Shown in pieces: positions 6,534 through 60,603 of a stretch of 64,000 nucleotides of DNA (position 1 is the first letter of the stretch; the number at the start of each line of letters is the position of its first letter). Source of the DNA: Austropuccinia psidii. Its lineage: Eukaryota; Basidiomycota; Pucciniomycetes; Pucciniales; Sphaerophragmiaceae. Location of the stretch: positions 33,663,816 through 33,727,815 of the forward strand of contig JALGQZ010000004.1 of assembly GCA_023105745.1 (NCBI GenBank), read 5' to 3'. A program made the position numbers and the translations under genes. The notes under the pieces are model-generated. The model was not told where the DNA came from. It did no database searches and saw nothing but the letters and a program-made list of their open reading frames with translations.

Positions 6534-8557
6534 TGTAAGGTTTGACTATGAAACAATAAGTAAAAATTACTAATATTTTACTTATTGTACTATGAATGTC
6601 CTTTTAAATGAAATAAATAAGATAAAAATAATTATAATAATAAAGAATTATTATAATTATGGCGTAAAATGATTATATTATTAAATAAATATAATAATAT
6701 AATTTATATTATAAAATATAATATAATAAAATAAATATATTAATATAAAATAATTAATATATTTAAAAGCACTTTATTATTGTTACAAACAAATAATAAA
6801 GGCGTAAAAAATTGTTTTTTATTAATCAAAAACAATTAATAACAATAATATTACCAATATTAAAGTTATAAATTAATATAAATACTATTTATATTAATTA
6901 AGAAATTATTAAAATAATAATAAAGAGAAAATTATTGTAATAAGAGAAAATAACCTACTTTTAACACTCAATATAATCACTTTGTAATATTTTACACCAA
7001 AAAATATAAATACAACCTTTTCAAATTGTATTTACAATAAAAATAAAGAAAATTACTAATATTCTTGATTTTTACGTGGAAATGAGTTTTTAGAGAGATT
7101 TTTAGCAAAAACAATTAAATAAATGATTTAATCATGTCAAAATGGATGATTATAACAAGGTGGTCTTTGGTCTTTAATAATATAATAGTTTTATATATAA
7201 AGAATAAAGAAATTACCTTTGATTTAATTGATTTAATGTTTTTGATGTGTCTGAGGGGAAAACAGAGTAAAAAGAGCTCTATTTATAGTAAATAACCCCC
7301 TCCTAGAGACCAACAGGCTTCTAGTAGACGTGTACTGATCATATCCACTGGAATTGATCAATATCTTAAGGTTTGAGGATGATTAAATCATGATCAAACC
7401 ATATTACATCATTATTACACCATTATTTAGAGTTATCACTATAACTCTAAGTTTGATGACATCAGAGGCTTGGCAGAACCCCAAATTTCGTGGATTTTAT
7501 TAGTTTTAATCATAAACTAATAGTATTCACCAATTTTATCACTCATATGACTGTTAAACTTAATTTAAGGTTACAGTAGGTTATCATAACTGCTCAATTT
7601 AAGCTCAAACTTTGATCTTTAATAACTTTCAAGTTTTACACGCTACAGCAATTCAGAGAGTGAATTCTGATAGCCTGACATAACCTTATTATTCTGCCAA
7701 GAGCGTTTCATTACATCATCAAAACTCTAATTATGATGATTTTTCTTGTAACTCATCTTTTCTGTCGAAATTTAATATTTTAAACTTCAAGCCATGATTT
7801 CAGGGGGTTGTACCCTGAATTTAATAATACAAATTACATCATTCTTCACGAATGAACTAGTAGAATACAACTGTGTACTTTTTTTTAAGTTTGGACCACT
7901 TTCACAACAAAGTGGTCAACAGCTCTGTTGATTTTTGTCAATATTTCATCATAGGTTTTGACCTTGATTATAATTTGTAAAATAAACTTATATCTGTGTT
8001 CTTACAGTAATTACGTGGTAACTTTATTTTTGGTTCATCACTCTATCTTGTATAGTTTAAGAGATATTAGCTATGATCCTTGAATATATGCGTTGACCAA
8101 AAAAGTGCATATATTCAGGTTAATTCCTTAAGTATTAACTTTGGAAATTAGATCATTAATTGTTTTATGTGTGAATTTGCATGGGGAATCCAATGGTCCA
8201 ATTTATTTCACATGTTGTTTCATTGGTTCTTGAAATAAATAAGGATTTATGGTTTTTATAAGGTATTATTCCTTATAACTCATTAAATATTGACTTTACA
8301 GATATGCCATAAAAATGGTATATGTGTATTTTACCATGGGGAATCCAATGGTATACCTTATTTCACATGATGATTCTTTGGTTTTTAAGTTAAACCAATA
8401 TTTTGTACCAATTTATGGTATTTTTGTATGTTTAAAGTAATTATTTTTAATGTATAATTATTCTAAGTAATTTTAGAATAATTATCTTAAAGGTATAATT
8501 ATTCTGATTCGGTCTTGTGAACTGATTGGGTATGTGGTCATATCTCAAAGGCTCACA
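6534..8557 (-). repeat. E1 3' LTR
   Basis: Read on the minus strand it begins TGTGAGCCTTTGAG and ends ACCTTACA; 2,024 bp, matching 25450-27473. It contains a TATA box on the minus strand (CTATAAATAG, complement of 7279-7288). It also holds two copies of a CATGGGGAATCCAATGG..TTATTTCACATG module about 150 bp apart (near 8197 and 8336). Extremely AT-rich between 6600 and 7000. Confidence 0.95.
7279..7288 (-). promoter_or_regulatory. TATA box in E1 3' LTR
   Basis: CTATAAATAG on the minus strand, in the element's transcription sense and identical in the 5' LTR (26195-26204), where it would drive the genomic RNA. The U3/R boundary is expected a few tens of bases downstream. Confidence 0.6.
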
Positions 8558-11600: not shown

Positions 11601-12658
11601 TTTTCCACATTAAGAATTATGTCTACTTCATGCCCAATTATAGCCTCTAGTGGCTCTTTGTCAGTTGCAAAGGCATCTTTATACTTAAATAAGAGGTTAA
11701 TCAATTTTTCTTTCATTTTTTCTGTTAATTCTTGATTGAATTCTGCCTCTTTAAGTTGTTCAGATATAAAAAGTTCCTTTTCTGGAATCTTTTCTTCCTT
11801 CTTAATAACTGTGATTTGTTTTTTGTTATTTAAGAAGCCAAACTTTTGTCTCTTATTATCTCCTATAGTAAAATATCTATCCTTTTGGTTAGAGATATCT
11901 ATACCATAGATTGATAAGTAGTCATTTCCCAGGATAAAGTGATTACTGGTACAGTTGTCCATTACCACAAATTCCACTTTAATTCTAACACATTGTGAAG
12001 GGTGGGGGAAAATAAGTGTTAAGTCAATTATTCCAAGGGGCATCATGCTTTCACTTGCACTACTAAATTTGACACCTTGGATTGGTATAAGTTTTTCTTG
12101 CCAGTCTGGAACAATTGTACTTAAATAACTTTTACCAACACAGGTGCAATATGCTCCTGTATCCAAGTTCACCTTTGCTTCTTGGTTATCAACCATGACA
12201 ATACTTATACTTGATTTTCCAGCTGTATACCCCATTCCTCTTGCAGGTTTGGTTTTATACAGTTTGGCATCTTGCACATTTGTCAGGTTTGTGTCAGATT
12301 TTCCAACTTGTGGTAAGTTTGAGTTGACATCTAATACTTCATAAATTATATCAATATTGTTGATTTCTGCATTAATTATATTGATTTCATCACGTTCAGA
12401 AGTTTCTGATTCTTCTGTCTCTTTTTCAGAGTCAGATTCCTCCTCTTTGTCATTGTGGTTTTCTGTTTCCACAATTTCATTGATTTTTGCCTTTTTTAGG
12501 CAATTATTGGCTAAGTGTCCAATACCTCCACATTTATGGCATTTTCTTTGCTCATTATCATTGGATGTACTGGGCTTGAAGGATTCTTTTAATTTATCTT
12601 TTTTGACAAATGGTTTATTTGGGCTTTGAATGTCCAATTTCTTCCAAGTCCTGCCAAT
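8676..12658 (-). pseudogene. pol: E1 pol (gag C-terminus, protease, RT, RNase H, integrase, chromodomain-like end)
   Basis: Polyprotein of the E family, continuing the gag frame interrupted by G2 at the CCAAT site. Order on the minus strand: zinc knuckle [14 protein letters not shown] (canonical CX2CX4HX4C); acidic linker; retropepsin [14 protein letters not shown] with [27 protein letters not shown] and active site YIDD ([11 protein letters not shown]); RNase H ([25 protein letters not shown]); integrase HHCC (HECHDSVAAGHLS .. CQTCDRC), catalytic Asp in NIDWVTALP (9767-9769), second Asp in IISDRDPKF, Glu in GLAERMIQ; basic chromodomain-like C-terminus (REYLVRYRN .. EDEWLLEKDI). Breaks: an in-frame TGA at 10310-10312 where E2 has Trp (LSRWALA), and a frameshift near 8840-8870 before the C-terminal domain. 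Apart from these it is open throughout, so loss of function is recent. Confidence 0.93.
12654..12658. repeat. G2 target site duplication, left
   Basis: CCAAT directly before the G2 LTR; repeated at 22928-22932. The target lies inside E1 gag-pol, in codons for TKIGRTW. Confidence 0.92.
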
Positions 12659-13016
12659 TGTCACAGGGGCTCTTCTAAATGAAGAGGGCCTGGCACTCAG
12701 TGAACAGACTTACTTATGGAGGGCTCAAAAGGAAAATACTCAAAAGATGAGAGTAATGGAGTAAGAGGATAAATTCCTAGTCATAAAATAATAAGTATAA
12801 AAGATAAAAGAGACAAAGCAAAAGCAATAATAAAGAGCCAACCACAAATAATCCTGAGTCACTGTTTCAACCTGTTCAGAAAAGAGAAAAGGGATTAATA
12901 AGGATATGGCCACCAGGACTCTACTGAACAGGTGAGGGAAGGCTAAGACTAACTTAGTAAATAATAAAATAATATTCCAAAGTGAGAATAAAATAATATT
13001 AAATAATAAATCAACT

Positions 13017-13029
13017 ATTTTAATTAACT
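13017..13029 (-). promoter_or_regulatory. Proposed R start / self-primer sequence in G2 3' LTR
   Basis: AGTTAATTAAAAT on the minus strand, perfectly complementary over 13 nt to the sequence 2 nt inside the 5' LTR (22151-22163). The equivalent copy in the 5' LTR is 22524-22536. Confidence 0.6.
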
Positions 13030-13046
13030 GGGGGAAAAACCCCCAG
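13028..13046. other. Hairpin next to the proposed transcription start (3' LTR)
   Basis: CTGGGGGAAAAACCCCCAG, a perfect 7 bp stem with 5 nt loop. The same element occurs in all five G-family LTRs, with a compensated base pair in G1 and G3 (see finding). Confidence 0.7.
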
Positions 13047-13099
13047 GTGGGTGAAGAGGGGCTGGTATATGTGAGAAATACCAGCCTTGGAGTTTGAGT

Positions 13100-13320
13100 G
13101 TTGAGATACTTGTCTGTATGCTGGAAGAAGTTGGATGTGGGATTGAATCCTGTATTGGTGAATCCAATACAGGTTATACAGTCAATACAGGTATTTGCAC
13201 CTGTATTGATTACAGGCCTGTATTTGGTGAATCCTGTATTTGGGTCTTGCCTGTATGAACTGTATTGAGGTCTGAAACTGTATTTGGATCTTGACTATAT
13301 GAAAACTGTATTTGGATAAT
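13100..13320. repeat. Cluster of CTGTATT / AATACAG sites in U3
   Basis: At least ten copies of CTGTAT(T) or its complement in about 220 bp, including two perfect inverted repeats (CCTGTATTGG-5 nt-CCAATACAGG near 13147-13171 and AATACAGGT-6 nt-ACCTGTATT near 13185-13208). Present in G2 5' LTR, G3 and G4 too. Confidence 0.75.
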
Positions 13321-13420
13321 CTTGAATGAAACCCCCTTGCTGATTGGGTTTTGAGGGGTATCAATGAAGTAATGATTGTGGAATATGATTGGTAATGCCC
13401 CTGCCTCCTTGGCTGTGACA

Positions 13421-13433
13421 TTATCCCCCTCTT
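13421..13433 (-). promoter_or_regulatory. G2 polypurine tract
   Basis: AAGAGGGGGATAA on the minus strand immediately before the 3' LTR. G4 has AAGAGGGGGAAAA and G1 has CAAGGTGGGGGTAC in the same place. Confidence 0.8.
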
Positions 13434-14429
13434 GAAAGTGGTGAGCTCTGAGCACCATAAGTACAGTGAGTCTTGATGAGCTTGAAATTAATCCATACAG
13501 TTCTTTTTCCCCAACTCCTTAATTTTATTCATTAAAATTTCTTCTTCAACCAATACTCAACAAAAATCCTCATTTGATCACCTGTAGGTATTTTCCCCTT
13601 GATCTTGAATTTGAATTCCCTCTTTCACTTCAAAATTCTTTCACTCTTCTTAAAATGTCTTCATTCTTGTCTTGAGTGTCTTCACCAAACTTTTCTTGAG
13701 TCCTCATGGCTTTTTGAAAAGTGGGTGATCTGGGTTTATGTCCCAAGAACACCAGATTTCATCATAATTTTCATCTTGAGGGTGTTGGCATAAAGTGGCC
13801 AACACTTGAGGTTTTGGACCATTTCAGAAGTCCTGGCCAAAATCCTTGATTTTGTGATTAGAGGGGATTTTGGCCAATTTGCGCAAAAATGCGCAAAATT
13901 TGCGCAAAGTGCGCAAATGCGCATATATGCCAAAATGGCATATATTGGTGGAAAACTGAAAAAAAATTGATAATGCTGAAAAAATGGCCTTATAAGGTGT
14001 TTTGGCCATTTTGCGCATTTTTGCGCAAAGTGCGCAAATGCGCAATTATGATGAAATTGGCCTAAAAGGCCTTTTGAAGCCTTTTGACAAGATAAAAGGG
14101 CCTTTTGCGCAAAAATGCGCAAAAGTGCGCAAATGCGCAAAATGCGCAAATTTGCCAATATGCATAATTAAGCATATTTTGATGAAAAATGATAAAATAG
14201 AGTAATTTTGAAGTTTTGAGGTCTGATGTGGCCATTTGTGCCAAAGTGCATAAAATCATGAAATTGGCCAATTGGGCCATTTGAAGCAGTTTTTTTTCCT
14301 TGATCTTGATTTCTTCTTGAATTTCTTTCCTCTTATCCCCTTCTTGACTGGTCAATTGCCATAAATGCCTTGCTGACTTGCAATTGTCCATAAATCTCTT
14401 GGTCTTGAATTTAAAATTTTGACTTGAAG
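13434..14429. other. G2 3' region: upstream region of the antisense gene
   Basis: No coding sequence. It contains, on the + strand, a dense array of TGCGCA palindromes (13873-14155) and then a TATA-like GATAAAATAG near 14190, followed by the ATG of the antisense gene. Cys/Ala/Phe-rich minus-strand frames here are translations of the repeats and are not genes. Confidence 0.7.
13873..14155. repeat. Array of 14 TGCGCA palindromes
   Basis: Three clusters (about 13878-13928, 14010-14044, 14103-14150) with five, four and five TGCGCA, mostly as TTTGCGCAAA or ATGCGCAAA, set among GGCCAA and TGCCAA words. In the related fragment G4 the corresponding motifs read TGCACA. Confidence 0.85.
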
Positions 14430-15599
14430 ATGAGTTCAAGGCTGACTTCCCTCTGTGATTCCAATCACTCTGATTCCCCACCCTCTGTACTTTATGGTCC
14501 TGGTGTTTTTGATAACTTGAGGGAGCTTTCTGAAGAGAGTATGGCCCCTACAGAGATTTGGGACATCAATAAAACCTATAATGGTTTTAAATCTGTCAGA
14601 GTTATTGAACCACCCTGCACCAATTGTAAGAGGAAAGGGATTCCTTGTGTGGAATCTGCTACTGCTAGGTCCACCAGGTGTCAGTTTTGCAATCTTGGAA
14701 AAAGAAATTGTTCCCAAGCCCACTATAGCTTTCCTGAAAATGCCAGAAGATTATGGAGCAGCATCAAGAAGGGTGGAAGATTTGGATTGGAAGCTCCTGT
14801 TGATGAACCTCCCACCTCTGATGCCACCTCTGGTCACTCCAATTGTGAGTTGATTGGCCATAAAATTGATGGGTTACTGACTTCTGTGTTTTCTTTTTAT
14901 TCTTCTTCAGTGACTGGATCTAGAATGAGGGGTGTCCAACAATGGAATAATACCAGTGGTTCCTGGGCAGCCATTGGAGGATCAATTCACCCCCAAGGAA
15001 ATCCCATTGGAGTGGCCCCAGAGGTTCCCATTTTGGTCATCAGAAAAGATGGAAGACTTGGAAAATTGAAGAGAAATTTGGTGGTTCAAGATGAAAATGA
15101 TACTGATGCTGAAGGAAGTGATGAGATTGATGGAGAAGAGCTTGAAATGACTACCCCAATCCAGAAAAGAAGAATCCAATCCACCTCACAATCCCCAGTC
15201 CAAGCCAGTACCACCAATAATGAAGTGATCAGGTCCCCCCAACCACCTCAACTTCCAATTAGATCCCCAACCAGGCCCTCCACACTTGCCTCCACCTCTA
15301 CCAATATCCAACCACCAGTGGCCAGCACTTCTAGAGACCCAATGTCTCCAGAACCTGAATCAATCTTTGAAACCCGTTGCCGCTGGAATATTACTGGCAA
15401 CTTCACTGATCAAAAAAGGGTGAACAAGAAGGTGGTCACCTCTCTATTTGCTGAAGTTGATGCTTTAACTGAGGTGTTTGTTGATAAGGCCATGAAGAGT
15501 GCTATTCCAGGGGAGCCCACTGCTGCTTTGGCCAGGGAGGCAGTTGCTTATGAAGATGCCATGGTTGTTAAGTTTAGAGAAGCCTTGAAGAAATTTTGA
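14430..15599 (+). CDS. Antisense Zn2Cys6-type protein carried by G2
   Basis: 389 codons unspliced, 367 if the intron at 14845-14910 is removed. It lies opposite to the element's own transcript, between pol and the 3' LTR. Start: first ATG of the frame at 14430 (MSSRLTSLCD). Residues 63-94 form C-X2-C-X6-C-X10-C-X2-C-X6-C (CTNCKRKGIPC .. RCQFCNLGKRNC), which meets the consensus of fungal GAL4-type binuclear zinc DNA-binding domains, with basic residues between Cys 2 and 3 and Pro before Cys 3. The tail is acidic (DENDTDAEGSDEIDGEELE), then Ser/Pro/Thr-rich, and ends in a helical block (VTSLFAEVDALTEVFVDKA). Family knowledge suggests a nuclear DNA-binding regulator; the target is unknown. TGCGCA palindromes lie upstream and AATAAA lies 55 nt after the stop. 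It could instead be a zinc-binding protein without DNA specificity. Confidence 0.85.
   Translation: MSSRLTSLCDSNHSDSPPSVLYGPGVFDNLRELSEESMAPTEIWDINKTYNGFKSVRVIEPPCTNCKRKGIPCVESATARSTRCQFCNLGKRNCSQAHYSFPENARRLWSSIKKGGRFGLEAPVDEPPTSDATSGHSNCELIGHKIDGLLTSVFSFYSSSVTGSRMRGVQQWNNTSGSWAAIGGSIHPQGNPIGVAPEVPILVIRKDGRLGKLKRNLVVQDENDTDAEGSDEIDGEELEMTTPIQKRRIQSTSQSPVQASTTNNEVIRSPQPPQLPIRSPTRPSTLASTSTNIQPPVASTSRDPMSPEPESIFETRCRWNITGNFTDQKRVNKKVVTSLFAEVDALTEVFVDKAMKSAIPGEPTAALAREAVAYEDAMVVKFREALKKF
14845..14910 (+). other. Intron in the antisense gene
   Basis: 66 nt: donor GTGAGT, branch-like TTACTGAC, pyrimidine-rich TTTTCTTTTTATTCTTCTTCAG-type acceptor. It is a multiple of three and free of in-frame stops, so either form is open. 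Splicing changes ..TSGHSN-CELIG.. to ..TSGHSN-LTGSR... The signals exist only on the + strand, i.e. antisense to the retrotransposon RNA. Confidence 0.8.
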
Positions 15600-15653
15600 T
15601 GAGGATTATCTGTAGCTGGTCTTTACCATTACTAGTGTTTGCTCTTGATTATT

Positions 15654-15659
15654 AAATAA
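15654..15659 (+). terminator. Polyadenylation signal of the antisense gene
   Basis: AATAAA in TTAAATAAATTC, about 55 nt downstream of the TGA at 15597-15599, on the strand of the antisense gene. Confidence 0.5.
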
Positions 15660-15896
15660 ATTCACTCCCCAAACAAGATATGGGAGTTATGATTGCTGCT
15701 TTTGAAACAAGAAATGAAAAATAAATCATACAAGTAAAAGAAAATGAAATAGAAAATAAAAAATAAAAATGAAAAAGAATTGAGAGAAAAAGAGAGTAAA
15801 GAAAGAAAAAAGAAATGCCTGAGGGTTGTCCTTCTTGTGGTGAGTTGCTTGATTTTTGGCCAAAAGATTCTGAAAGATGAAATCAAGCATTTGATG

Positions 15897-15972
15897 CTCA
15901 CAGCGTGGCCAAGGTAATGTTTTTACAAGAATTAGACCCCTCAGGGATGCATACCAGGAGATGGAACTTACT
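15897..15972 (-). repeat. 3' module, second copy
   Basis: Minus-strand GTAAGTTCCATCTCCTGG .. TACCTTGGCCACGCTGTGAG. It matches 16191-16272 and two positions in G1 (about 29054-29130 and 29321-29400). Confidence 0.7.
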
Positions 15973-16190
15973 TTCATAACTTCCACTCCCCACCAAGCAC
16001 CATAAATGAAAATTGAAATATGCCATAAGATGAATTTGATAATGAATGTCTTGAAAGATGATTTATGGCATGATTAAAGAAAAAAGAGAAAATAAAAGAA
16101 AAGATTGGGCCATATCTTGATGAAAAGGTCCACATCTTGAGGGTATGATGTTGCAAGGCCTTCTGAACCTGTCCAAAGAATTGACAAGTT

Positions 16191-16272
16191 CTCACAAAGT
16201 GGCCAAGGTGATGTTTACAACAAATTTGGGTAGAATACCCCCTTAAAGGTGCATGACAGGAGAGGAACTTAC
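16191..16272 (-). repeat. 3' module, first copy
   Basis: Minus-strand GTAAGTTCCTCTCCTGTC .. CACCTTGGCCACTTTGTGAG; about 300 bp from the second copy. Confidence 0.7.
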
Positions 16273-16307
16273 TTTAATAAACTCCAATCCCCACCAAGCA
16301 CCATAAA

Positions 16308-19300
16308 TCAAACTCTTGAGGCATTTGGGCCAGGCTTGTCTGGATACAAAGTGTGAAAATCCTTGACAAGGTCTGGGGAGTTGGTAAGGTTGGAAGCTGG
16401 TTCCCAAGTTGTTCTTTCTGGGTCTTCATTGAATCCTTTCCACTCCACTAAATACCATAATGAACCTCTCTTGAGTTTTGAGTCCAGAACCTGAGCCACT
16501 TCCCACTCTTCTTGCTCTTCCACTATTACTGGAGGTGGTGGCAATTGGTGTCGATTTGGGATAGTTGTTTGCTTGACTGGTTCTAATAAGGACACATGGA
16601 AAACAGGGTGAACTGACTTCCATTGTTGAGGCAACTTGAGGTGATATGCATGGCTGCCAATCTTCTTGAGAACTTCAAAGGGTCCCAGCCATCTTTCTGA
16701 AAGCTTTTTGGTGGGTCTTGTTGTCTTGATGTTCTTGGAAGCTAGCCATACTTTGTCCCCAGGTTGGAAATCAGGTGGAATTGCTCTATTTTTATCTGCA
16801 TACTTCTTAAAACGCTTTATTGCTGACTCTAATTCTTCTTTGACAACTTGCTGTACTGATTGGAGTTTTGATGATAACTTTCCAGCAGGTGTATCTTGAG
16901 AAATGTGGATTGAATCAAAGCTGGGATTTCTTCCATAAATAGTGAAAAATGGAGACTGCTTTGTTGATGAATGTTCTGCATTATTATAGGCAAATTCAGC
17001 CAGAGGGAGCCAGGTGTGCCAGTCATCTTGATGGTAACTGACATACATCCGAAGATACTGTTCTAGAATCTGATTTACCCTCTCTGTCTGTCCATCTGTT
17101 TCAGGGTGAAAGGCAGTTGAAAGATCTCTTGATATCTTGAGCTGCTGACACAATTGAGTCCAAAATGATGAAACAAATAATGAACCTCTATCACTAACAA
17201 TACTGATTGGAAGACCATGTTTGGAAAAGACATGATTAATGAATATTTGAGCTAAATCCAAAGCAGTGATTGTTGAATAAGTTGGAATAAATATTGCCAT
17301 TTTTGAAAATCTGTCTACAACTACTAAAATTGAATCAAAGTTGCTTGACAAGGGCAATTGGGTGATAAAGTCCATTGATAAGGAATTCCAAGGACCAGAT
17401 GGAATTTGAAGAGGCTTGAGTAATCCAAACTTCTTATGGTTGATGTTCTTGTTTCTTGAACATTGCTGACATGAGGACACATAGTCCTTGATGATTTGAT
17501 TCATGCCAGCCCAATAAAAATCCCTCTTGATGAGCTTGAGGGTCTTCTCCTGGCCAGGATGGCCAGCCAATGGTGAATCATGACGCCTTTGAAGAATATC
17601 CAATTGAACTTCATGATTGCTTGGAATAACTACTCTATCTTTGAACAATAATAATTTTGCTTGAGGTTCAAGAGAATAGTCTGGGACTGATTCTCCTCTT
17701 GCTAATCTCTTGAGGATCTCCTTATAGTCTTTGTCTTGCCATACTTGTCTTTGAATCTGATCAACTAAATCTGAAAACATTTCAACTTTTATGGAAAAGA
17801 ATCTTGACTCTTGAATTTCATTTTGCTTGAGAACTTGATGAAAGTTTTGAGGATTCTTGCTGATGAAATACACCCCCCTCTCTGGGTACACGTCGTCCCG
17901 ACGTGACAAGGCATCTGGTAAAGTGGCCAGCCTGCCTGGGCGGTAAGTGATAACAAAGTGAAATTCAGACAAACATTCGGCCCAACGGGCTTGACGACGA
18001 GTAAGGACTTTAGAGGACATAAAATATTGGAGAGAACAATGGTCTGTCAAGACCTCAAAGGAATCAGAAAGAGAAAGGAGAAAGGCTCTCCAGCGCTTGA
18101 GAGCCCAAACTATGCCAAGGAGTTCCTTGTCATGAATTTCATAGTTGAGTTCAGCTGGTAAGAGCTTGCGACTATCAAATGCAATGGGATGCTTTCCTGA
18201 GTCATTCACCTGACTCAGTACAGCACCCAAGGCATAATCAGAGGCATCAGTCTCTACAATAGTTGGAAGAGAAGGATTAAAGTGAGAGAGGATAGGAGCA
18301 GTGGTGAAAGCTTCTTTGAGTATCTGAAACTGACTAAGAGCTTCCTCATTGAAGATAAAGGGAGAATCTTTTTTAAGGAGGGAAGTGAGAGCAGAGATTT
18401 TTTTGGAATAATTTTTAATGAAACGACGATAAAAGTTGGCAAAGCCAAGAAAGGATTGAAGAGCCTTGATGTTCTTGGGCTGAGGCCAATTGAGGATTTG
18501 TTGAACCTTTGAAGAATCCATCTTGAGGCCATCACTTGAAACAACATAGCCCAAGTATTCCACACTTGAGGCATGGAATACACACTTTGAGGCTTTAGAA
18601 AACAAATTATTGTCTCTCAGTCTTTGGAGAACAGAGGCCACATGTTTAACATGTTCATCCAAAGAGCTAGAGAAGACCATAATATCATCTAAGTACACTA
18701 CAACAAAAACATCCAAATAATCTGCAAAGATATCATTCACAAGATTTTGGAATGAAGCTGGAGCATTGGTTAAGCCAAATGGCATAACCAAATATTCATA
18801 ACTGCCATATTTGGTTCTAAAAGCAGTTAAGTGCTCATCCCCCTCTTTGATTCTCAAGAGATTATAAGCACCACGCAGATCTATCTTGGAGAAGATAGTA
18901 GCACCGTTGAATACGGTAAGAAGCTGATTCATTGGAGGAACAGGATACCTGTTCTTCCTAGTGACAGCATTAAGTTTGCGGTAGTCAACACACAAACGAA
19001 GACCACCATCCTTTTTCTTAACAAAAAGGACAGGTGCTCCTGTTGAGGAGGAGCTTGGTCTAATGAAACCTTTCTCTACATTCTCTGAAATGTAGGCCCG
19101 CAGTGTTTCTGACTCATTCCTTGATAAAGAGTAGATAACACCAACTGGAGGTAGAAGACCCTCCAGTTCGATATGATGATCACAGGCACGGTGTGGAGGA
19201 AGTTTCTCTGCTTTCACTTTGGAAAATACATCCAAATATTTGTGATAAACAGGAGGGACTACCTTCAGCACAGTTTCAATCTCTTCTGGCTCTTCCTCCT

Positions 19301-20030
19301 CATCCCACTGCTCCTCCAGGGAGGCATGAAAAGATAAAGGAGGAAGGTCCATATCCCCTTGAAAGAGATGAAGTGAAGATATAGCAACATCTTCTCCAAC
19401 ATCTTTTATCTCTTTGAAGACTCCATCTCTTAATGGAAGTAATGACTGAGAGGGAAAAATGGAGGGGTTATGGACAGAAGGAGGAAAGGAAGGTATCTTA
19501 AGTTCACCAACCAGAGCAACACTGTTGACAGCAGTGGAAAAGTCATTACTAGTAGAAGAAATAATACCACTAGAATCCTTATGATTAGAATCATAGGTGA
19601 TCAATCCATTTTTCCAATCAATAATGGGATTGAAATGGTAAAGAAAATCATAGCCCAATATTAGGTCTTCTCCCTTGGGTGAATCTATGATAAAGAAATC
19701 CCATTCAAAGCTTGGGAAGGAAGGTAAATCAACAACCCACTTGGTATAATGGGTGATGAACAAGGAAGTGGATTCACTGGAATCCAGAATGAAAAGAGGA
19801 ATCTTTTCAGGGAGCTCTGACATGGTCAATGAGTACTTGAGAACAAAATTCTTTGCAATAAAGGAGTTTGTAGCACCAGAATCAATGAGAATACTATAAA
19901 AAATATCAGAGATTGAAGAAAAAATAAGAAATTTTAAAGATTTCTTGACACTAGTATTCAGAGTGCACAAATGTGCTCTTGAAGGAAATAAGTGAGAACC
20001 ATTGAACACATCATGATTCCCACTCAGGCT
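16308..20030 (-). CDS. pol: G2 Pol polyprotein (protease, RT, RNase H, integrase, chromodomain)
   Basis: Uninterrupted frame of about 1,240 codons. It has no ATG at its start: the first in-frame codon after the GGGAAAA heptamer is AGC at 20030, so expression by -1 frameshifting from gag is expected (numbering below is from GTG at 20009). Retropepsin ILIDSGATNSF (Asp 43); RT with CVDYRKLNAVTRKNRYPVPP, VMPFGLTNAP and active site YLDD at 439-442; RNase H (ETDASDYALGAV, HDKELLGIVWAL, LTDHCSLQYF); integrase with HHCC (HDSPLAGHPGQE .. CQQC), Asp 880 (SMDFITQLP), Asp 940 (VSDRGSLF) and Glu 976 (TERVNQIL), a D-35-E spacing; GPF motif; C-terminal chromodomain (YLVEWKGFNEDPERTTWEP). Chromodomain plus GPY/F-type integrase places it among chromoviruses. 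All catalytic residues are intact, so it could still act in trans. Confidence 0.96.
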   Translation of the reverse strand, partial: SLSGNHDVFNGSHLFPSRAHLCTLNTSVKKSLKFLIFSSISDIFYSILIDSGATNSFIAKNFVLKYSLTMSELPEKIPLFILDSSESTSLFITHYTKWVVDLPSFPSFEWDFFIIDSPKGEDLILGYDFLYHFNPIIDWKNGLITYDSNHKDSSGIISSTSNDFSTAVNSVALVGELKIPSFPPSVHNPSIFPSQSLLPLRDGVFKEIKDVGEDVAISSLHLFQGDMDLPPLSFHASLEEQWDEEEEPEEIETVLKVVPPVYHKYLDVFSKVKAEKLPPHRACDHHIELEGLLPPVGVIYSLSRNESETLRAYISENVEKGFIRPSSSSTGAPVLFVKKKDGGLRLCVDYRKLNAVTRKNRYPVPPMNQLLTVFNGATIFSKIDLRGAYNLLRIKEGDEHLTAFRTKYGSYEYLVMPFGLTNAPASFQNLVNDIFADYLDVFVVVYLDDIMVFSSSLDEHVKHVASVLQRLRDNNLFSKASKCVFHASSVEYLGYVVSSDGLKMDSSKVQQILNWPQPKNIKALQSFLGFANFYRRFIKNYSKKISALTSLLKKDSPFIFNEEALSQFQILKEAFTTAPILSHFNPSLPTIVETDASDYALGAVLSQVNDSGKHPIAFDSRKLLPAELNYEIHDKELLGIVWALKRWRAFLLSLSDSFEVLTDHCSLQYFMSSKVLTRRQARWAECLSEFHFVITYRPGRLATLPDALSRRDDVYPERGVYFISKNPQNFHQVLKQNEIQESRFFSIKVEMFSDLVDQIQRQVWQDKDYKEILKRLARGESVPDYSLEPQAKLLLFKDRVVIPSNHEVQLDILQRRHDSPLAGHPGQEKTLKLIKRDFYWAGMNQIIKDYVSSCQQCSRNKNINHKKFGLLKPLQIPSGPWNSLSMDFITQLPLSSNFDSILVVVDRFSKMAIFIPTYSTITALDLAQIFINHVFSKHGLPISIVSDRGSLFVSSFWTQLCQQLKISRDLSTAFHPETDGQTERVNQILEQYLRMYVSYHQDDWHTWLPLAEFAYNNAEHSSTKQSPFFTIYGRNPSFDSIHISQDTPAGKLSSKLQSVQQVVKEELESAIKRFKKYADKNRAIPPDFQPGDKVWLASKNIKTTRPTKKLSERWLGPFEVLKKIGSHAYHLKLPQQWKSVHPVFHVSLLEPVKQTTIPNRHQLPPPPVIVEEQEEWEVAQVLDSKLKRGSLWYLVEWKGFNEDPERTTWEPASNLTNSPDLVKDFHTLYPDKPGPNASRV

Positions 20031-21382
20031 TTTCCCTGCTTGCTAGGGAAGCCTTTTGATGACCCTTGCCTATTCTCAGGCCTCTTGAAGCATTTTTCAA
20101 ATGGGTGTTTACCACCACAATAATTGCACAAGCCTTCTTTAATCCTCCTCTCCTTTTCAGAACCGATTAATTTATTGTCCTTATTGAGGAGAGCAGCATG
20201 AGGCTTGTCTTTGGACACTTGAAAATTCTTCCCCTTCTTATTCTTCTTGTGATAAGGCTTCTTTGATGATGAACTTTGAGGGGGCTTGGAGGAGTTGGAT
20301 CCACTGATTGGAGGCTTCTTCTCTTGATGACTGCCCTTTTCCTTTTGCCTCTCATGATATCTTGTGTCTAATTCTAAAGTGACATCCATAAGTTCTTGAA
20401 GAGTGTCAAAAGTTCCAGGGTGAGAAGCCAATTGGTCCAACAATCTTGATGCCAAGCCTCTTCTATACACATGAATGTAAGCTCTTTCCCCCCAATCTCC
20501 AATTCTTGACATTAAGCTTCTGAAATCTGCTATGTACAAGGAAACATGACCACTTTCCTTCATCCTCAAATTGTCCAACTCTTGTTCAGCTTTCCTGACT
20601 TCATTGGGGTCACCAAACAGAGTGAATAATTGAGATTCAAATAATGGCCAGTTATTGAGGAGGTAGGAAGGGTCTTCATTGGAAATATTTTAGAGGTAAG
20701 GTTCAATCCACTTGCCAGCTCTACCAGTAAGAAAAGAAGTTGAGTACAAAACCTTCTTCCTGTCAGAGAAGACGTTTGCTGGATCATTATGGAAAATTAG
20801 TTGACAGGATTGGACAAATCCTCTCAACTTATGAGCTTGAGTACCATCAAAAGAATCAGGTGCCTTCATGGATGGAGTCTTGAAAGCAGGGGCTTTGGAA
20901 TTGTCCCTGGGGGCAACTGCTTGAGTGAGTTGTCCCATGAACTGAGTCATTTGCTCCATCATCTTGAAGAGAATTGGATCAGTTTAAGAGACAGGAGGTT
21001 GACTAGAAAGGGCTAGATTAGAACCCTGAGGCACCTCTGGAGCATTTGCCAAGGCATCTGCCACTTCAGTCTCCCCAGAATCATCCTCTTCCACAGACTC
21101 TTCCCCCTCCTCATCTTCAACTTCCCCTAATCTTGCTCTTGCACCTTCAGACATGCCAGGGTAGCCACCCAAAAGTCCAGAAAAGGATCTTGATCTTCTA
21201 GATTTCATTCCACCTCTTCTTGAGGGTGCTGCTCCTTCCATTGGTGGTCCTCTGTCCAAATTTGCACTCAGTTGATGAACTGATGGTGTGCGGTCAAGAG
21301 GAGCCCTTGCTGTAGGAGTGAGAACAGCTGGAATCTTCTGGGATCTAGTATTCTTGGCTGGAGGGCTATGCTGAACTGGCAT
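20024..21382 (-). pseudogene. gag: G2 gag (two nonsense codons)
   Basis: One continuous 453-codon frame from ATG at 21382 (MPVQHSPPAKNTRSQ) to TGA at 20024-20026, broken only by TAA at 20984-20986 (CAA in G3) and TAA at 20690-20692 (TCA in G3). N-terminal region basic/Pro-rich, then acidic (EVEDEEGEESVEEDDSGE), then the capsid-like region (FKTPSMKAPDSFDGTQAHKL, FLTGRAGKWIEP, ADFRSLMSRIGDWGERAY), a Lys/Ser-rich linker and a zinc knuckle CNYCGGKHPFEKC. The knuckle spacing is CX2CX3HX4C, one residue shorter than the usual CX2CX4HX4C, and is the same in G3. The frame ends three codons after the slippery heptamer begins. Full-length Gag is not made unless stops are read through or Gag is supplied by another copy. 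Confidence 0.92.
20030..20036 (-). promoter_or_regulatory. G2 gag-pol -1 frameshift heptamer
   Basis: G GGA AAA in gag phase on the minus strand, then GCC and the gag stop TGA; the pol frame is -1. It fits X XXY YYZ. Confidence 0.75.
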
Positions 21383-22165
21383 TATAAAAGAAGAATGAAT
21401 AAAACTTGATGATACTTTGAATAAAATAAGGCTTGACCAAAACAATCAAATGAAAATCTTGATGAACTTGAGAAATCAATCAATAATCTTGAAGTGAATC
21501 AATATGAATAAATCTTGAAGAGTGAATATGACAAAGTCAAATTCTTATGAATAATCAATTTCAATCAATAAGTCAAATCAAGTCAATCAAAATCAAATCA
21601 ATTAAGTCTTGAGGAATTAAATCAATATCTTCAAAAGTCAATTCAATTTTCTTGAGGAATCAAATTCAAATCAATCAATTAAATCAAATCTTGAGGATAA
21701 ATCAGTTATCTTGAGTAGTCAAATCAAGTCAATCAAATCAATTCAATCAAAGTCAATTCAAAATCTTGAGGTGAAATCAATGTCTTGAGGAATCAATCAA
21801 TAAATCAATAATCTTGAGAAATTTCCAAAATCCAAAATCACTAAATACCCCAAATCAATAAAATCCCTGAATGATTATTCAATTAACCCAAATAATTCAA
21901 CTCAAATAACCTGATAAACCTGAATTCAGACAAAAAAGAGAAATGAGAATGATAATGATAAAGTGAAATGGTCAGCAGAATTTTGAAATGAGAAAGAGAA
22001 TCAATTTTCATTTGAATGAAAAGAATGAGATGAAAATTGATGAGAGAGAAAAAATCATAAAAATCATAAAAATCATAAAATCATGAAAAGATCATAATTG
22101 AAGAATGAGAGAAATGAATAAAATGAATGAAAGAAAAAGAAGCAATTATGAGTTAATTAAAATAA
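21383..22165 (-). other. G2 leader
   Basis: Low-complexity leader of about 780 bp built on TTGATT, TCAAGA and CCTCAAG words in element sense. No gene. The primer-binding region lies at its LTR-proximal end. The matching G3 leader is 60604-61300. Confidence 0.75.
22151..22163 (-). promoter_or_regulatory. G2 primer-binding site, self-priming type
   Basis: ATTTTAATTAACT, 2 nt inside the 5' LTR. It does not begin with the TGG of a tRNA-primed PBS, but is perfectly complementary to AGTTAATTAAAAT in the LTR (22524-22536). Confidence 0.6.
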
Positions 22166-22927
22166 TGTCACAGGGGCTCTTCTAAATGAAGAGGGCCTGG
22201 CACTCAGTGAACAGACTTACTTATGGAGGGCTCAAAATGAAAATACTCAAAAGATGAGAGTAATGGAGTAAGAGGATAAATTCCTAGTCATAAAATAATA
22301 AGTATAAAAGATAAAAGAGACAAAGCAAAAGCAATAATAAAGAGCCAACCACAAATAATCCTGAGTCACTGTTTCAACCTGTTCAGAAAAGAGAAAAGGG
22401 ATTAATAAGGATATGGCCACCAGGACTCTACTGAACAGGTGAGGGAAGGCTAAGACTAACTTAGTAAATAATAAAATAATATTCCAAAGTGAGAATAAAT
22501 CAATATTAAATAATAAATCAACTATTTTAATTAACTGGGGGAAAAACCCCCAGGTGGGTGAAGAGGGGCTGGTATATGTGAGAAATACCAGCCTTGGAGT
22601 TTGAGTGTTGAGATACTTGTCTGTATGCTGGAAGAAGTTGGATGTGGGATTGAATCCTGTATTGGTGAATCCAATACAGGTTATACAGTCAATACAGGTA
22701 TTTGCACCTGTATTGATTACAGGCCTGTATTTGGTGAATCCTGTATTTGGGTCTTGCCTGTATGAACTGTATTGAGGTCTGAAACTGTATTTGGATCTTG
22801 CCTGTATGAAAACTGTATTTGGATAATCTTGAATGAAACCCCCTTGCTGATTGGGTTTTGAGGGGTATCAATGAAGTAATGATTGTGGAATATGATTGGT
22901 AATGCCCCTGCCTCCTTGGCCGTGACA
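22166..22927 (-). repeat. G2 5' LTR
   Basis: 762 bp, same ends as the 3' LTR. Hairpin at 22535-22553 and proposed RNA start at 22536. U3 carries the CTGTATT/AATACAG cluster (about 22607-22828) and a CATATACC TATA-like site upstream of the hairpin. Confidence 0.95.
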
Positions 22928-22932
22928 CCAAT
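22928..22932. repeat. G2 target site duplication, right
   Basis: CCAAT directly after the G2 5' LTR, matching 12654-12658. Confidence 0.92.
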
Positions 22933-25449: not shown

Positions 25450-27473
25450 TGTAAGGTTTGACTATGAAACAATAAGTAAAAATTACTAATATTTTACTTA
25501 TTGTACTATGAATGTCCTTATAAATGAAATAAATAAGATAAAAATAATTATAATAATAAAGAATTATTATAATTATGGCGTAAAATGATTATATTATTAA
25601 ATAAATATAATAATATAATTTATATTATAAAATATAATATAATAAAATAAATATATTAATATAAAATAATTAATATATTTAAAAGCACTTTATTATTGTT
25701 ACAAAAAAATAATGAAGGCGTAAAAAATTGTTTTTTATTAATAAAAAACAATTAATAACAATAATATTACCAATATTAAAGTTATAAGTTAATATAAATA
25801 CTATTTATATTAATTAAGAAATTATTAAAATAATAATAAAGAGAAAATTATTGTAATAAGAGAAAATAACCTACTTTTAACACTCAATATAATCATTTTG
25901 TAATATTTTACACCAAAAAATATAAATACAACCTTTTCAAATTGTATTTACAATAAAAATAAAGAAAATTACTAATATTCTTGATTTTTATGTGGAAATG
26001 AGTTTTTAGAGAGATTTTTAGCAAAAACAATTAAATAAATGATTTAATCATGTCAAAATGGATGATTATAACAAGGTGGTCTTTGGTCTTTAATAATATA
26101 ATAGTTTTATATATAAAGAATAAAGAAATTACCTTTGATTTAATTGATTTAATGTTTTTGATGTGTCTGAGGGGAAAACAGAGTAAAAAGAGCTCTATTT
26201 ATAGTAAATACCTCCCTCCTAGAGACCAACAGGCTTCTAGTAGACGTGTACAGATCATATCCACTGGAATTGATCAATATCTTAAGGTTTGAGGATGATT
26301 ACATCATGATCAAACCATATTACATCATTATTACACCATTATTTAGAGTTATCACTATAACTCTAAGTTTGATGACATCAGAGGCTTGGCAGAACCCCAA
26401 ATTTCGTGGATTTTATTAGTTTTAATCATAAACTAATAGTATTCACCAATTTTATCACTCATATGACTGTTAAACTTAATTTAAGGTTACAGTAGGTTAT
26501 CATAACTGCTCAATTTAAGCTCAAACTTTGATCTTTAATAACTTTCAAGTTTTACACGCTACAGCAATTCAGAGAGTGAATTCTGATAGCCTGACATAAC
26601 CTTATTATTCTGCCAAGAGCGTTTCATTACATCATCAAAACTCTAATTATGATGATTTTTCTTGTAACTCATCTTTTCTGTTGAAATTTAATATTTTAAA
26701 TTTCAAACCATCATTTCAGGGGGTTGTACCCTGAATTTAATAATACAAATTACATCATTCTTCACGAATGAACTAGTAGAATCCAACTGTGTCCTTTTTT
26801 TTAAGTTTGGACCACTTTCACAACAAAGTGGTCAACAGCTCTGTTGATTTTTGTCAATATTTCATCATAGGTTTTAACCTTGATTATAATTTGTAAAATA
26901 AAGCTTATATCTGTGTTCTTACAGTAATTACGTGGTAACTTTATTTTTGGTTCATCACTCTATCTTGTATAGTTTAAGAGATATTAGCTATGATCCTTGA
27001 ATATATGCGTTGACCAAAAAAGTGCATATATTCAGGTTAATTCCTTAAGTATTAACTTTGGAAATTAGATCATTAATTGTTTTATGTGTGAATATTCATG
27101 GGGAATCCAATGGTACAATTTATTTCACATGTTGTTTCATTGGTTCTTGAAATAAATAAGGATTTATGGTTTTTATAAGGTATTATTCCTTATAACTCAT
27201 TAAATATTGACTTTACAGATATGCCATAAAAATGGTATATGTGTATTTTACCATGGGGAATCCAATGGTATAACTTATTTCACATGTTGATTCATTGGTT
27301 TTTAAGTTCAAACAATTTTTGTACCAATTTATGGTATTTTTGTATTTTTAAAGTAAATATTTTTAATGTATAATTATTCTAAGTAATTTTAGTATAATGA
27401 TCTTAAAGGTATAATTATTCTGAGTCTTTCTTGTGAACTTATTGGGTATGTGGTCATATCTCAAAGGCTCACA
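25450..27473 (-). repeat. E1 5' LTR
   Basis: 2,024 bp copy of 6534-8557, ending (element sense) ACCTTACA at 25450 and beginning TGTGAGCC at 27473. TATA box CTATAAATAG is the complement of 26195-26204. Confidence 0.95.
26195..26204 (-). promoter_or_regulatory. TATA box in E1 5' LTR
   Basis: CTATAAATAG on the minus strand, the likely promoter of the E1 genomic RNA. Confidence 0.65.
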
Positions 27474-29050
27474 CATTTAGCAAGATGAAGTTCAAACCTC
27501 AAGATTTTATGAAGTCAAGGTGGAATGCTTTTCAAATTTGATCAAATCAGTTTAGAGGAAATTATGGCAAGACTCTTAGTACAGAAATATCCTTCAAGAA
27601 TTGGGTAAAGGTAGATCCTTTCAAGATTATTCTCTTGATTCCTCTTCCCAACTTCTGTTATTCAAAGATTGGATGGTGGTCCCAAATGAACCCACAATTC
27701 AACTCAGAATTCTTCAAAAGCACCATTTCTCTCCTCTATCTGGATGCCCTGGCCAAGAGAAGACCCTCAAACTTGTCAAGTGGTATTTCTACTGGTCCAG
27801 AATGACTGAATTTATCAAGGATTATGTATCATCTTGTCAACAGTCCTCAAGAAACAAAAATATTCATCACAAGAAGTTTGGACTCATCAAACCTCTTCAC
27901 AAGAATTTTGGACTCCTCAAACCTCTTTGAATTCAAAATGGTCCTTGGATTTTACTGTCAATGGACTTTATCACTCAACTTTCACTGTCCAATTCCTTTG
28001 ACACAATCCTTGTCATAGTGGACAGATTCTCAAAAATAGAAGTTTTTATTCCAACAATTTCTTCAATAACTTCAATGGATTTTGCCCATTTATTCATCAA
28101 CAATATCTTTTCAAAGAATGGCCTTCCTTCAAGCATTGTTGGTTATAGAGGTTCACTTTTTGTTTCTTGCTTTTGGACCAATCTGTGGCAGCAGCTCAAG
28201 ATTACAAGAGACCTGCAAACTGCTTACCATCCAGGAACTGATGGACAGACAGAGAGGTTAAATTGGATACTAGGATAGTACCTTTGAATGTATGTCAGTT
28301 ATCATCAAGATGATTGGAACACTTAGCTCCCTCTGGCTTAATTTTCCCACAAAATTTCTGATCACTTTTCAACAAAACAATCACCATTTTTTACTGTCTA
28401 TGGAAGAGATCCACAATTTGGCTCAGTTCACATCACTCAAGATACTCCTGCTGGAAAGTTATCAAGAGAAGTCCAATCAGTACAGCAAGATTCAAAGAGG
28501 AAACTTGAAGTTTCCATAAACAGGTTTAAGAGGTATGCAGATGAAAGTAGAGGAAGTATACACATTTTTTCAATCTGGGTGAAATGGTATGGCTTTCTTC
28601 CAAGAATATCAAATCAACTAGACCCACCAAAAAACTGTGTGAAAGATGGTTGGGTCCTTTTCCAATATTCAATAAGGTCAGCACTCATGCCTACCATCTC
28701 AATAGAAGTCCATACACCCAGTTTTCCATATTTCCCTCCTTGAAGCAGTCAAGACATCAACAATCCCAAATCGGCATCAAGAGCCTCCTCCACTAATCAT
28801 CATTGAAGAAAAATAGGAATGGGAATTATCTCAAATTCTGGACTCTAAGATCAAGAGAGAAAAATTATGGTACTTGGCGGAATGAAAAGGTTTCAGTCAA
28901 GACTCACAAAGATGCACTTGGAAACCAACCAAAAACCTCAAGAATTTCCTGGAACTTATCAAGAATTCTCATTCTTTATATCCTGATAAGCCAGGACTCA
29001 TTTATTCAAGAGCTTGATAATTTATGGTCCTTTGTGAGTAGAGGAATTAC
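27474..29050 (+). pseudogene. pol: G1 pol: integrase and chromodomain end
   Basis: Resumes the G1 sequence cut at 6533; the CATTT duplication is 27474-27478. Integrase HHCC region (SPLSGCPGQEKTLKLVKWYFYW .. SCQQSSRN; the last zinc-binding Cys reads Ser). Catalytic core from 27961 (MDFITQLSLS, VGYRGSLFVS where G2 has VSDRGS, so the second Asp is lost, and TDGQTERLN with Glu kept). GPF region (WLGPFPIF) and decayed chromodomain text to about 29000. Several frameshifts and stops. Nonfunctional. Confidence 0.9.
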
Positions 29051-29776
29051 CAAAGGTAAGTCCTACTCCTGGTAAGCACATTTAGAGGTATTCTACTGTT
29101 TTGTTGTAAGCACTACCTTGGCCACTCTGTGAGCACTGTGCAATTTTTGGACACAGATATTTGGCCTGGCTTTCAACATCAATTCCAAAGTTTATGGCCA
29201 TTTTTACTTGGGCAAATGGACCATTCATTATTCTTATAACTTTACACTTTTCTTCTTTTGAAATCCATTCCTTCAGACAATGTTTAATTTTTAGGCCACT
29301 TGACTGAGTTTTAACTACCATTAGTAAGTTCCTCTCCTGTTGTGCACTTCCCTGAGGGTTCTACAGTCATTCAAAAAATCACCTTGGCCACTCTGTGAGC
29401 ACCTGGCATCAAATGTTGTTTTCCAGGTCCTTAGTCAATTCAAATAAGCTGTCCACTTCTATGTTCAAGATTTTATTTCCTTTTTCATATTTTCTTCCAT
29501 GTTTCTTTATCTTTCTTTTGTTACATTTTTTCAAAATTTCCTTTCTTATAATCTTAATGCCAAAATCTTTATGTCAACTCAATTCTTCAAAACTTCCAAA
29601 GCCAAATGTCAAAAGAAGACCAAATGATCCTCACATCATATGCCAACCTTGTACCGGTCATAAAATGTTTTTTAAGATTAAATAGCTTTGGAATACCTAT
29701 GTCCAATCCTTCTCAAAAGCCCAATAGGCTTTTAAATGTTTGGTGTGCAGGAGCTCACCATTCAAGGTGGGGGTAC
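29051..29776 (+). other. G1 3' untranslated region with PPT
   Basis: Two copies of the G-family 3' module (about 29054-29130 and 29321-29400), as in G2. The segment ends in the polypurine tract CAAGGTGGGGGTAC (29763-29776) next to the LTR. It is only ~0.7 kb long versus 2.9 kb in G2, and no trace of the antisense Zn2Cys6 gene is seen, so that gene is not universal in the family. Confidence 0.75.
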
Positions 29777-45435: not shown

Positions 45436-46149
45436 TGTCACAGGGGCTCCTCTAAGTAAAGAGGGCCTGGCACTTGGTGAGCAGACTTACTTATGGAGGG
45501 CTCAGAATAAATACCCAATTGATAAGAGTAATTAGATAAAAGAAATAAATTCCTAGTCATAAAATAATAAGCGTTAAAGATATGATAGAAAGAAAAAAGC
45601 AACAATAAAGAGCCAACCACGAATAATCCTGTAACACTGTTTCAACCTGTTCAGAAAAGAGAGAAGGATTAATAAAGGATATGGGCACCAGGACTCTACT
45701 GAACAGGTGAGGGAAGGCAAAGACTAACTTAATAATTAATAAAATAATATTTCTTAATGAGAATTAAAATAATATTAAATAATAAATCTAACATTTTAAT
45801 TAACTGGGGGAAAAACCCCCAGGTGGAGGAAAGGGGGCTGGTATATGTGAAAAAGTGCCAGCCTGGAGTTTGAGTGTTGAGAAACCATGATTGTATGATT
45901 GAAGAACCTGTATTTGAGATGTGAAACTGTATTGGTGAATCAAATACAGTTATTTGAATCAATACAGGTGTTTGCACCTGTATTGAGGGCAGGCCTGTAT
46001 TTGGTGAATCCTGTATTTAGGTTCTGCCTGTATTGAGGTTTGAAGCTGTATTTGGTGAATCTTCCATTAAACCTGTTGCTGATTAGGTGTTGGAAGATTT
46101 TTGATTAGTAATGAATGGTAATGCCCTCTCTGTCTCCATGGCTGTGACA
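45436..46149 (-). repeat. G4 3' LTR
   Basis: 714 bp G-family LTR on the minus strand (TGTCACAGGGGCTCC .. GGCTGTGACA on plus), with hairpin 45804-45822 and CTGTATT sites at about 45895-46050. Followed by the PPT complement TTTTCCCCCTCTTGAAAG. No second LTR or target duplication; the other end of the element is lost at about 46777. Confidence 0.85.
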
Positions 46150-46777
46150 TTTTCCCCCTCTTGAAAGTGGTGAGCTCTGAGCACCATAAGAGCAAGTGAA
46201 TCTTGATGAGGTCAAATGAAACTTTCTTCCCCCCCCATTACCCAATTTTCATCCCCTCATAATTCTTCTTCATCAATCATAATTTCAAACTCCTTCATCT
46301 TCACAACTTGTAGGTCCTTCTTCCTTGACTTGATTCTGATTCCTCCTCCCTTCTTTGAAATTTTTTTCTGCATTTCTTCTGTTCTTCTATTTTTTTGATC
46401 TTCTTTCTTATTGCAGTGTTCTTTACCCAATTTTTCTTGAGTCCTCATGGCTCATTATAAATTGTGATTCAGTTTTATGTCCTAAGAAGTTACTGACATG
46501 GTATCAAATTGTCTTCATTTTTTGAGATTGGGCCAAATTGGGTTTTTCTTGCTTTTGGGTCCTTGCAGGATTAATTGAAATTTTTACCCAATTGTTGTTT
46601 TCTGGGCGTTTTTTGGCTGATTTGGCCAAAATGCACAAAATGCACAAAATTCAAGATATTGAAGTATTTGATGATTTCTTGGCTGAAATGAATGTTTTGG
46701 AAGTTTTTCATGATTTGAAGAAGTAATAGCCAGAAATGCACAAATATGCCAATATGACTGAAATGGCATATTTTGAT
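46150..46777 (-). pseudogene. G4 3' region fragment
   Basis: Corresponds to G2 13421 to about 14050: PPT, GTGGTGAGCTCTGAGCACCATAAG segment, then TGGCCAAAATGCACAAAATGCACA text where G2 has TGCGCA arrays. It is cut before the antisense gene would begin and joins E2 pol at about 46778. Confidence 0.7.
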
Positions 46778-58640: not shown

Positions 58641-58722
58641 ATAATAACAAAAATAAATAAAATAAACTGTTGTGATTAAAATTAAGGATAAAAGATCAGA
58701 TCAAATAAAAAAGGTAAAAAAT

Positions 58723-58920
58723 TAGTCCTTGTATGACTTTAAACTACAGGGTAGCAACCTGAAGGCTAAAATTTAGTCCTTGTATGACTTTAAACTACAG
58801 GGTAGCAACCTGAAGGCTAAAATTAGTCCTTGTATGACTTTAAACTACAGGGTAGCAACCTGAAGGCTAAAATTTAGTCTTTGTATGACTCAAACTACAG
58901 GGGTAGCACACCAGAGGGCT
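58723..58920. repeat. 51-bp tandem repeat
   Basis: TAGTCCTTGTATGACTTTAAAC.. units at 58723, 58774, 58824 and 58875 (spacings 51, 50, 51), with single diverged copies near 59050 and 59122, running up to the pol start of C1. Confidence 0.85.
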
Positions 58921-60588: not shown

Positions 60589-60593
60589 TTAAA

Positions 60594-60603
60594 TTAATTA
60601 ACT
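60594..60603 (+). promoter_or_regulatory. G3 primer-binding site, self-priming type
   Basis: TTAATTAACT five bases inside the LTR, complementary over 10 nt to AGTTAATTAA in the LTR (60213-60222). Confidence 0.5.

Follow-up and report, generated by a model that had tools for sequence, protein, structure and literature searches.

Extra genes on the antisense strand of long terminal repeat (LTR) retrotransposons have been described as being of unknown function (PMC7264820). The plant elements Retand, Grande and RIRE2 contain an antisense open reading frame (ORF) in the region separating pol from the 3' LTR, and most copies retain it (PMC7264820); the Retand protein has a predicted DNA-binding domain (TRP28), and about half of the elements examined have tandem repeats in that region as well (PMC11963269). 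An antisense gene, brtn, has been reported in Boty of the fungus Botrytis (PMC7264820), and accounts of Boty-like elements in Botrytis cinerea – also Ty3/gypsy – credit one brtn-bearing element with a CHROMO domain (PMC7264820, PMC8365987, PMC4227169). A further point of comparison is the VANDAL/VANC system of Arabidopsis, in which an element-coded protein is accompanied by short noncoding motif arrays that expand tandemly and vary between copies, and for which binding by VANC and loss of methylation have been shown experimentally (PMC5735166). Here we describe a Ty3/gypsy chromovirus, G2, found in a 64,000-nucleotide stretch of the Austropuccinia psidii genome (contig JALGQZ010000004.1; hereafter the window). 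Between pol and its 3' LTR, G2 carries an intron-bearing gene on the opposite strand: the gene is a maintained part of the element, and its protein was under purifying selection during element multiplication. Unlike VANC, the G2 system is known from sequence alone.

In the placement of its antisense gene G2 resembles the Retand group, although the latter is a plant lineage of non-chromoviruses with a different protein domain, whereas G2 is a fungal chromovirus. With the Boty-like elements G2 shares an antisense gene and, in the one reported case, the chromodomain; on the other hand, an intron and a six-cysteine cluster, both present in the G2 gene, go unmentioned in the text available on brtn (the two genes were compared by description only). 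A first-pass annotation of the window had proposed a notable fungal counterpart of the plant antisense genes. An antisense gene in a fungal element is indeed present, but given brtn in Boty it is not the first (PMC7264820). A literature search of limited coverage found no rust or Zn2Cys6 case of a retrotransposon antisense gene, and the word 'antisense' is absent from three rust papers (PMC8063080, PMC12210899, PMC12774611).

The gene is a frame of 389 codons on the strand opposite the pol ORF. It encodes at residues 63–94 six cysteines with the exact spacing C-x2-C-x6-C-x10-C-x2-C-x6-C, contains a 66-nt intron with GTGAGT, TACTGAC and TTCTTCAG, and is followed by AATAAA: in all these features the first-pass annotation was accurate. 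Since the intron of the window copy is a multiple of three nucleotides long and free of stop codons, the frame is open whether spliced or unspliced, and an intact frame alone is thus no proof of splicing. Protein annotations from A. psidii (the best 120 of 149 matches) include 37 with the pattern of a spliced junction and 17 that read through the intron, with 66 unclassified. Where the intron is read through (17 proteins), identity to the window is 50% over the 22 residues that it encodes (188/374) and 82% over the exons (3939/4829). Retrotransposition leaves the intron in place because the RNA of the element is the other strand.

Copies of the gene were sought in the 1.015-Gb, 84-contig assembly (in which the window is C4:33663816-33727815). 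A DNA query with the antisense gene gave 1012 first-look candidates, 40 of which were scored: all are 99–100% identical and full length or one base short, which indicates that the gene-bearing subfamily spread recently. Of two protein queries, one yielded at least 229 matches (115 candidates scored) and the other 111 (106 scored). From 68 fetched loci, 38 distinct copies were kept; these are the best-scoring and not a random sample, and loci L039–L068, drawn by a read-through protein query, bring an excess of in-frame introns and well-kept proteins. As copies were chosen by likeness to the gene, the sample covers gene bearers, the gene-free share of the wider family lying outside it. The gene is antisense to pol in all 38, and in 34 the LTR stands in the expected orientation (no LTR match was present in the flank examined for the remaining four): position and orientation are those of an aORF-3R, an antisense ORF between pol and the 3' LTR.

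The splice signals are kept throughout this sample, with a GT donor in 37 of 38 copies, an AG acceptor in 37 and an exact TACTGAC in 31. Intron length is 66 nt in 32 copies and 65 nt in four, the others having 48 or 42 nt. The four 65-nt introns (L011, L012, L017 and L027), whose retention would shift the frame, have a common end tract, pointing to a lineage whose intron breaks the frame.

To follow the protein, copies were divided into group A (young; 18 copies with 98.4% or more identity to the window) and group B (old; 15 copies below 90%), leaving out L062, L011, L017 and L025, which are intermediate, and L012, which has a deletion. An intact spliced frame survives in 13 of the 18 young copies, compared to two of the 15 old ones. 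Defining a fixed difference as a site where the main base of each group reaches 75%, exon differences between A and B amount to 28 nonsynonymous and 48 synonymous changes (N/S), an omega-like ratio of 0.17. Changes within groups are 49/24 in A (0.60) and 399/144 in B (0.81): fixed changes (28/48) differ sharply from the within-group total (448/168; Fisher P = 1.7e-9). At a threshold of 85% the fixed changes are 22/44 (P = 1e-10), and at 95% they are 12/22 (omega-like 0.16, fixed changes only). Allowing for a transition bias of 2–6 (the estimate is about 1.8) gives 0.20–0.24 for fixed changes, 0.69–0.85 within A and 0.94–1.15 within B. Overall, the omega-like ratio for fixed changes is 0.15–0.24, which contradicts the value of about 1 expected of a neutral sequence. 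The sampling bias toward well-kept proteins should lower N/S within groups and would weaken, not create, the contrast. Alignment A3 was reduced to six rows after versions of ten and eight rows were found to contain stop codons.

Low N/S among fixed changes and relaxed N/S within groups mean that the gene is constrained in propagating lineages and decays after insertion, which argues against a cDNA or pseudogene that is merely carried along. The C-terminus of pol in the same copies behaves alike: 3/9 fixed (0.09), 39/27 within A and 217/70 within B (Fisher P = 0.001). The antisense protein is thus conserved as other element proteins are (0.17 vs. 0.09), its constraint approaching that of pol; the intron and the variation that arose after insertion provide two internal yardsticks. 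When the same fixed changes are read in the other five frames the ratios are 1.33, 1.21, 1.5, 0.27 and 1.27, with 12, 41, 7, 11 and 22 stops, respectively; the value of 0.27 belongs to the reverse frame (11 stops) in which third positions lie opposite those of the gene. Net divergence between A and B is 0.039 at codon positions 1 and 2, 0.139 at position 3, 0.184 in the intron and 0.28–0.36 in the upstream flank outside the motif array described below: splice sites are kept while the intron drifts. Cysteine codons show silent TGT/TGC switches between the groups. Together with the orientation in all 38 copies and the splice signals, the fixed N/S bears out the first-pass claim of a maintained intron-bearing gene as opposed to a captured cDNA.

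The strict six-cysteine pattern is present in 16 of the 18 young genomic copies and 5 of the 15 old ones, and in 29 of 120 annotated relatives, 23–29 of which are gapped at any given cysteine (best 120 of 149). Relatives within these best 120, and in another set of 105 matches, are all from Austropuccinia psidii MF-1; none came from outside A. psidii in either set. The C-terminal part is modelled as two long helices with a predicted local distance difference test (pLDDT) score of about 64–76, a low-confidence model. The product is likely to be a six-cysteine protein, probably one that binds zinc. The spacing fits the GAL4-type Zn2Cys6 family; membership of that family is unproven, the label resting on the cysteine pattern.

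Upstream of the gene lies an array of palindromic TGCGCA motifs: 14 sites, compared to a shuffle mean of 0.23, with none elsewhere in the window. The array region is the most CpG-rich 300 bp of the window (scan in 50-bp steps), and its observed/expected CpG ratio is 1.2 (13860–14160), whereas G2 has 0.12, the window 0.13 and the antisense gene 0.03. Outside subfamily B, 22 of 23 copies contain 6–36 TGCGCA sites, with 11–29 in copies sharing 99% or more identity with the window; arrays of subfamily B include additional TGTGCA or TGCACA variants. In A. psidii, young elements are reported to be CpG-methylated and loss of CpG by deamination is thought likely (PMC8063080, PMC12774611); 5mCpG profiles and a transcriptome have been published for this genome (PMC12774611). 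Against such an eroding background the CpG-rich array stands out, and it is apparently kept by repeated expansion. What is new here is an array of this kind – CpG-rich, variable in length and just upstream of the gene – in an element that is otherwise CpG-poor. A bacterial promoter scan of the upstream region was uninformative for a fungus.

A close relative of G2 without the gene is present in the same genome, part of it within the window, and this near twin provides a comparison for the antisense gene. The relative is 95% identical to G2 over 2.7 kb (gag and early pol) and 93% across roughly 3 kb starting in mid-pol; the LTRs are about 74–75% identical. Its match ends at window position 15737, 138 bp past the antisense stop codon, and restarts at 13410–13460 beside the LTR. 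The unmatched 1.1 kb contains no convincing gene, the longest frame wholly inside it being 129 amino acids. This 3' module occurs at about 40 places in the genome (42 matches; 40 candidates scored of 3679; a count of the module only). The older relative G0, about 71–74% identical, has no trace of the gene and little space ahead of its LTR. When groups A and B (33 copies) are compared over 14430–16890, their silent divergence is 0.139 for the antisense gene and 0.041 for pol: 3' modules and pol may thus have been exchanged between elements, and these histories are mosaic, perhaps through recombination. The antisense gene looks like an optional module that is selectively kept where present.

We consider it probable, if only modestly so, that the antisense gene is the G2 family's own accessory gene for a nuclear DNA-binding factor acting in trans on copies of the element. 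Its placement, the maintenance of its splice signals and selection on its protein are observed. That the gene is transcribed and spliced and that its product binds zinc are inferences, as are the target and the direction of effect. In this reading, the accessory gene that the A. psidii chromovirus family carries antisense to pol, in the pol–3' LTR interval, would encode a nuclear DNA-binding protein acting in trans on short arrays of motifs (TGCGCA on the upstream side of the gene, perhaps ATACAG in U3), and might so sustain element transcription or counter silencing. A narrower version of this proposal, in which a sequence-specific anti-silencing or activating factor would recognize the CpG-bearing TGCGCA array, re-expanded by the element while the genome around it methylates and loses CpG, and protect or activate the element, is on present evidence doubtful. 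A motif array is present in G2 and the number of its sites varies between copies; a VANC-like link between protein and array is conjectural. Were this narrower version correct, G2 would parallel plant VANC by convergence in a fungus and could serve as a model for antisense genes of the Retand type. VANDAL itself is not an LTR retrotransposon.

Several results weigh against the proposal that the gene encodes such a factor. The Pfam profile Zn_clus (PF00172) has no match in the window protein at E values up to 1; it matches 11 of 31 A1 relatives (best E 0.028) and 25 of 34 A2 relatives (best E 0.051), and 29 of the A2 members had been picked for intact cysteines. The match to P0007, the only one examined in detail, scores 13.7 bits against a cut-off of 21, spans half of the profile and one half-motif, and is out of register: neither the window protein nor P0007 reaches the curated cut-off. 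A search of the PDB returned five matches to E 10 – three to the GAL4-type factors LEU3 (E 0.3 and 0.4) and LAC9 (0.48), and two to venom peptides scoring alike – none of them significant, and a search with the full alignment returned none up to E 10. Two AlphaFold models of low confidence (mean pLDDT 47 and 57) show no clear binuclear cluster. Of the GAL4-type zinc cluster claimed in the first-pass annotation, then, the exact cysteine pattern stands, while the hidden Markov profile match is weak or absent. Nor does either array closely follow the presence of the gene: all 15 copies of B have short TGCGCA arrays (1–5 sites) and L011 has none, and the gene-less relative also holds ATACAG, at 4–5 per LTR, which weakens that motif as an exclusive target of the protein. 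The presence of the gene-less module at about 40 places suggests that the gene is not needed for the spread of such elements. Lastly, all four copies with 65-nt introns carry exon defects as well, so that they are weak evidence for a need of splicing.

Other roles for the gene can be set against the same observations. The protein may have a role other than in transcription: it may work within the particle, help to package RNA or assist the pre-integration complex in entering the nucleus, and its cysteines may bind RNA or give the protein its structure. Such functions have been proposed for plant antisense ORFs (PMC7264820), the same pattern of selection would be expected, and the two predicted C-terminal helices (pLDDT about 64–76) would suit an assembly or dimer domain; yet a relative lacking the gene has spread, and the cysteines are spaced as in DNA-binding clusters and not as in a CCHC knuckle. 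We regard this alternative as possible, though rather unlikely. A DNA-binding protein could also repress as readily as activate, and motif arrays would serve either end, so that the factor might limit its own element and reduce damage to the host. Selection during propagation, however, more readily favours a factor that promotes spread, and the near identity of the 40 scored copies speaks for recent spread of the gene-bearing subfamily: a self-limiting role is improbable.

Two further explanations would deny the protein any function for the element. Neither G0 nor the gene-less relative carries the gene, and it has no relative outside A. psidii among the matches listed, as might be expected of a captured host gene carried along without element function; but the ratio of fixed changes (28/48, vs. 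448/168 within groups) and the loss of intact spliced frames between young and old copies (13/18 vs. 2/15) are those of constraint first and decay after insertion, making passive carriage very improbable. Antisense transcripts have been discussed as regulators of retroelements (PMC7264820), so that the RNA might be the functional product – interfering with element RNA, for example – and the protein incidental. Constraint, however, tracks the codon positions of a single stop-free frame and its cysteines, which selection at the level of RNA would not produce; this explanation we rate lowest of all. Coordinates of the features discussed are collected below.

Features of G2, its antisense gene and the gene-less relative (positions in the window)
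Feature	Position	Strand	Details or basis
Antisense gene between G2 pol and 3' LTR	14430-15599	+	367 amino acids spliced, 389 unspliced
Exon 1 of antisense gene	14430-14844	+	415 nt in 33/38 copies
Intron of antisense gene	14845-14910	+	66 nt here; GTGAGT, TACTGAC, TTCTTCAG
Exon 2 of antisense gene	14911-15599	+	689 nt in 34/38 copies
Six-cysteine cluster, residues 63-94	14616-14711	+	C-x2-C-x6-C-x10-C-x2-C-x6-C
AATAAA, candidate polyadenylation signal	15655-15660	+	
TGCGCA array upstream of antisense gene	13880-14148	+	14 sites, 8-11 bp apart within clusters
ATACAG/CTGTAT motifs in U3 of G2 3' LTR	13114-13311		12 motifs
G2, Ty3/gypsy chromovirus, apparently nested inside another element	12659-22927	-	10,269 bp; LTR pair, pol domains, CCAAT
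3' LTR of G2	12659-13420	-	LTR pair comparison
5' LTR of G2	22166-22927	-	LTR pair comparison
CCAAT target-site duplication of G2	12654-12658 + 22928-22932		read in sequence
Polypurine tract adjoining G2 3' LTR	13421-13432	-	by eye
Primer-binding site of G2 (likely)	22151-22164	-	14-nt exact complement inside LTR, 22523-22536
gag of G2	20024-21382	-	two in-frame stops in this copy
pol of G2	16308-20009	-	1233-amino-acid open frame
5' part of gene-less relative	60153-64000	+	runs on in L069 to ~4877

G2 is a chromovirus by its protease, reverse transcriptase, RNase H and integrase order, C-terminal chromodomain, LTR pair, 5-bp duplication and polypurine tract: the Pfam domains of pol are, in order, RVP_2, RVT_1, RT_RNaseH, Integrase_H2C2, rve, SH3_Tf2-1 and Chromo, every one above its cut-off. 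Its LTRs (12659–13420 vs. 22166–22927) align without gaps and are identical at 756 of 762 sites; with six mismatches and CCAAT on either side, the element is young, as the first-pass annotation had it. The two in-frame stops in gag mean that this young copy is not fully intact. The primer site is complementary to the element's own LTR, which we take to be a self-priming arrangement of the Tf1/sushi type; G2 is likely to be self-priming in this sense, use of the site for priming being a prediction. A G/C hairpin was seen by eye beside the 14-nt complementarity. A repeat of about 120 bp lies 3' of pol (15897–16012 and 16191–16312), one copy overlapping the pol stop, and the same repeat is present in G0 (29020–29153 and 29323–29401). 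Between 15600 and 16307, fixed differences between A and B are fewer (0.097) than at third codon positions (0.134).

Three elements are apparently nested within 2687–31408: G0 holds G1, and G1 holds G2. The probable LTRs of G1 are at about 6534–8557 and 25450–27473. At 45436–46780 a relative of G2, truncated just before the antisense gene, is joined to a Ty3-like element on the other strand. An open frame of 1164 amino acids at 52736–56230 resembles, by eye, the gag or protease region of an element, and direct repeats lie near it at 50431–51334 and 58667–58908.
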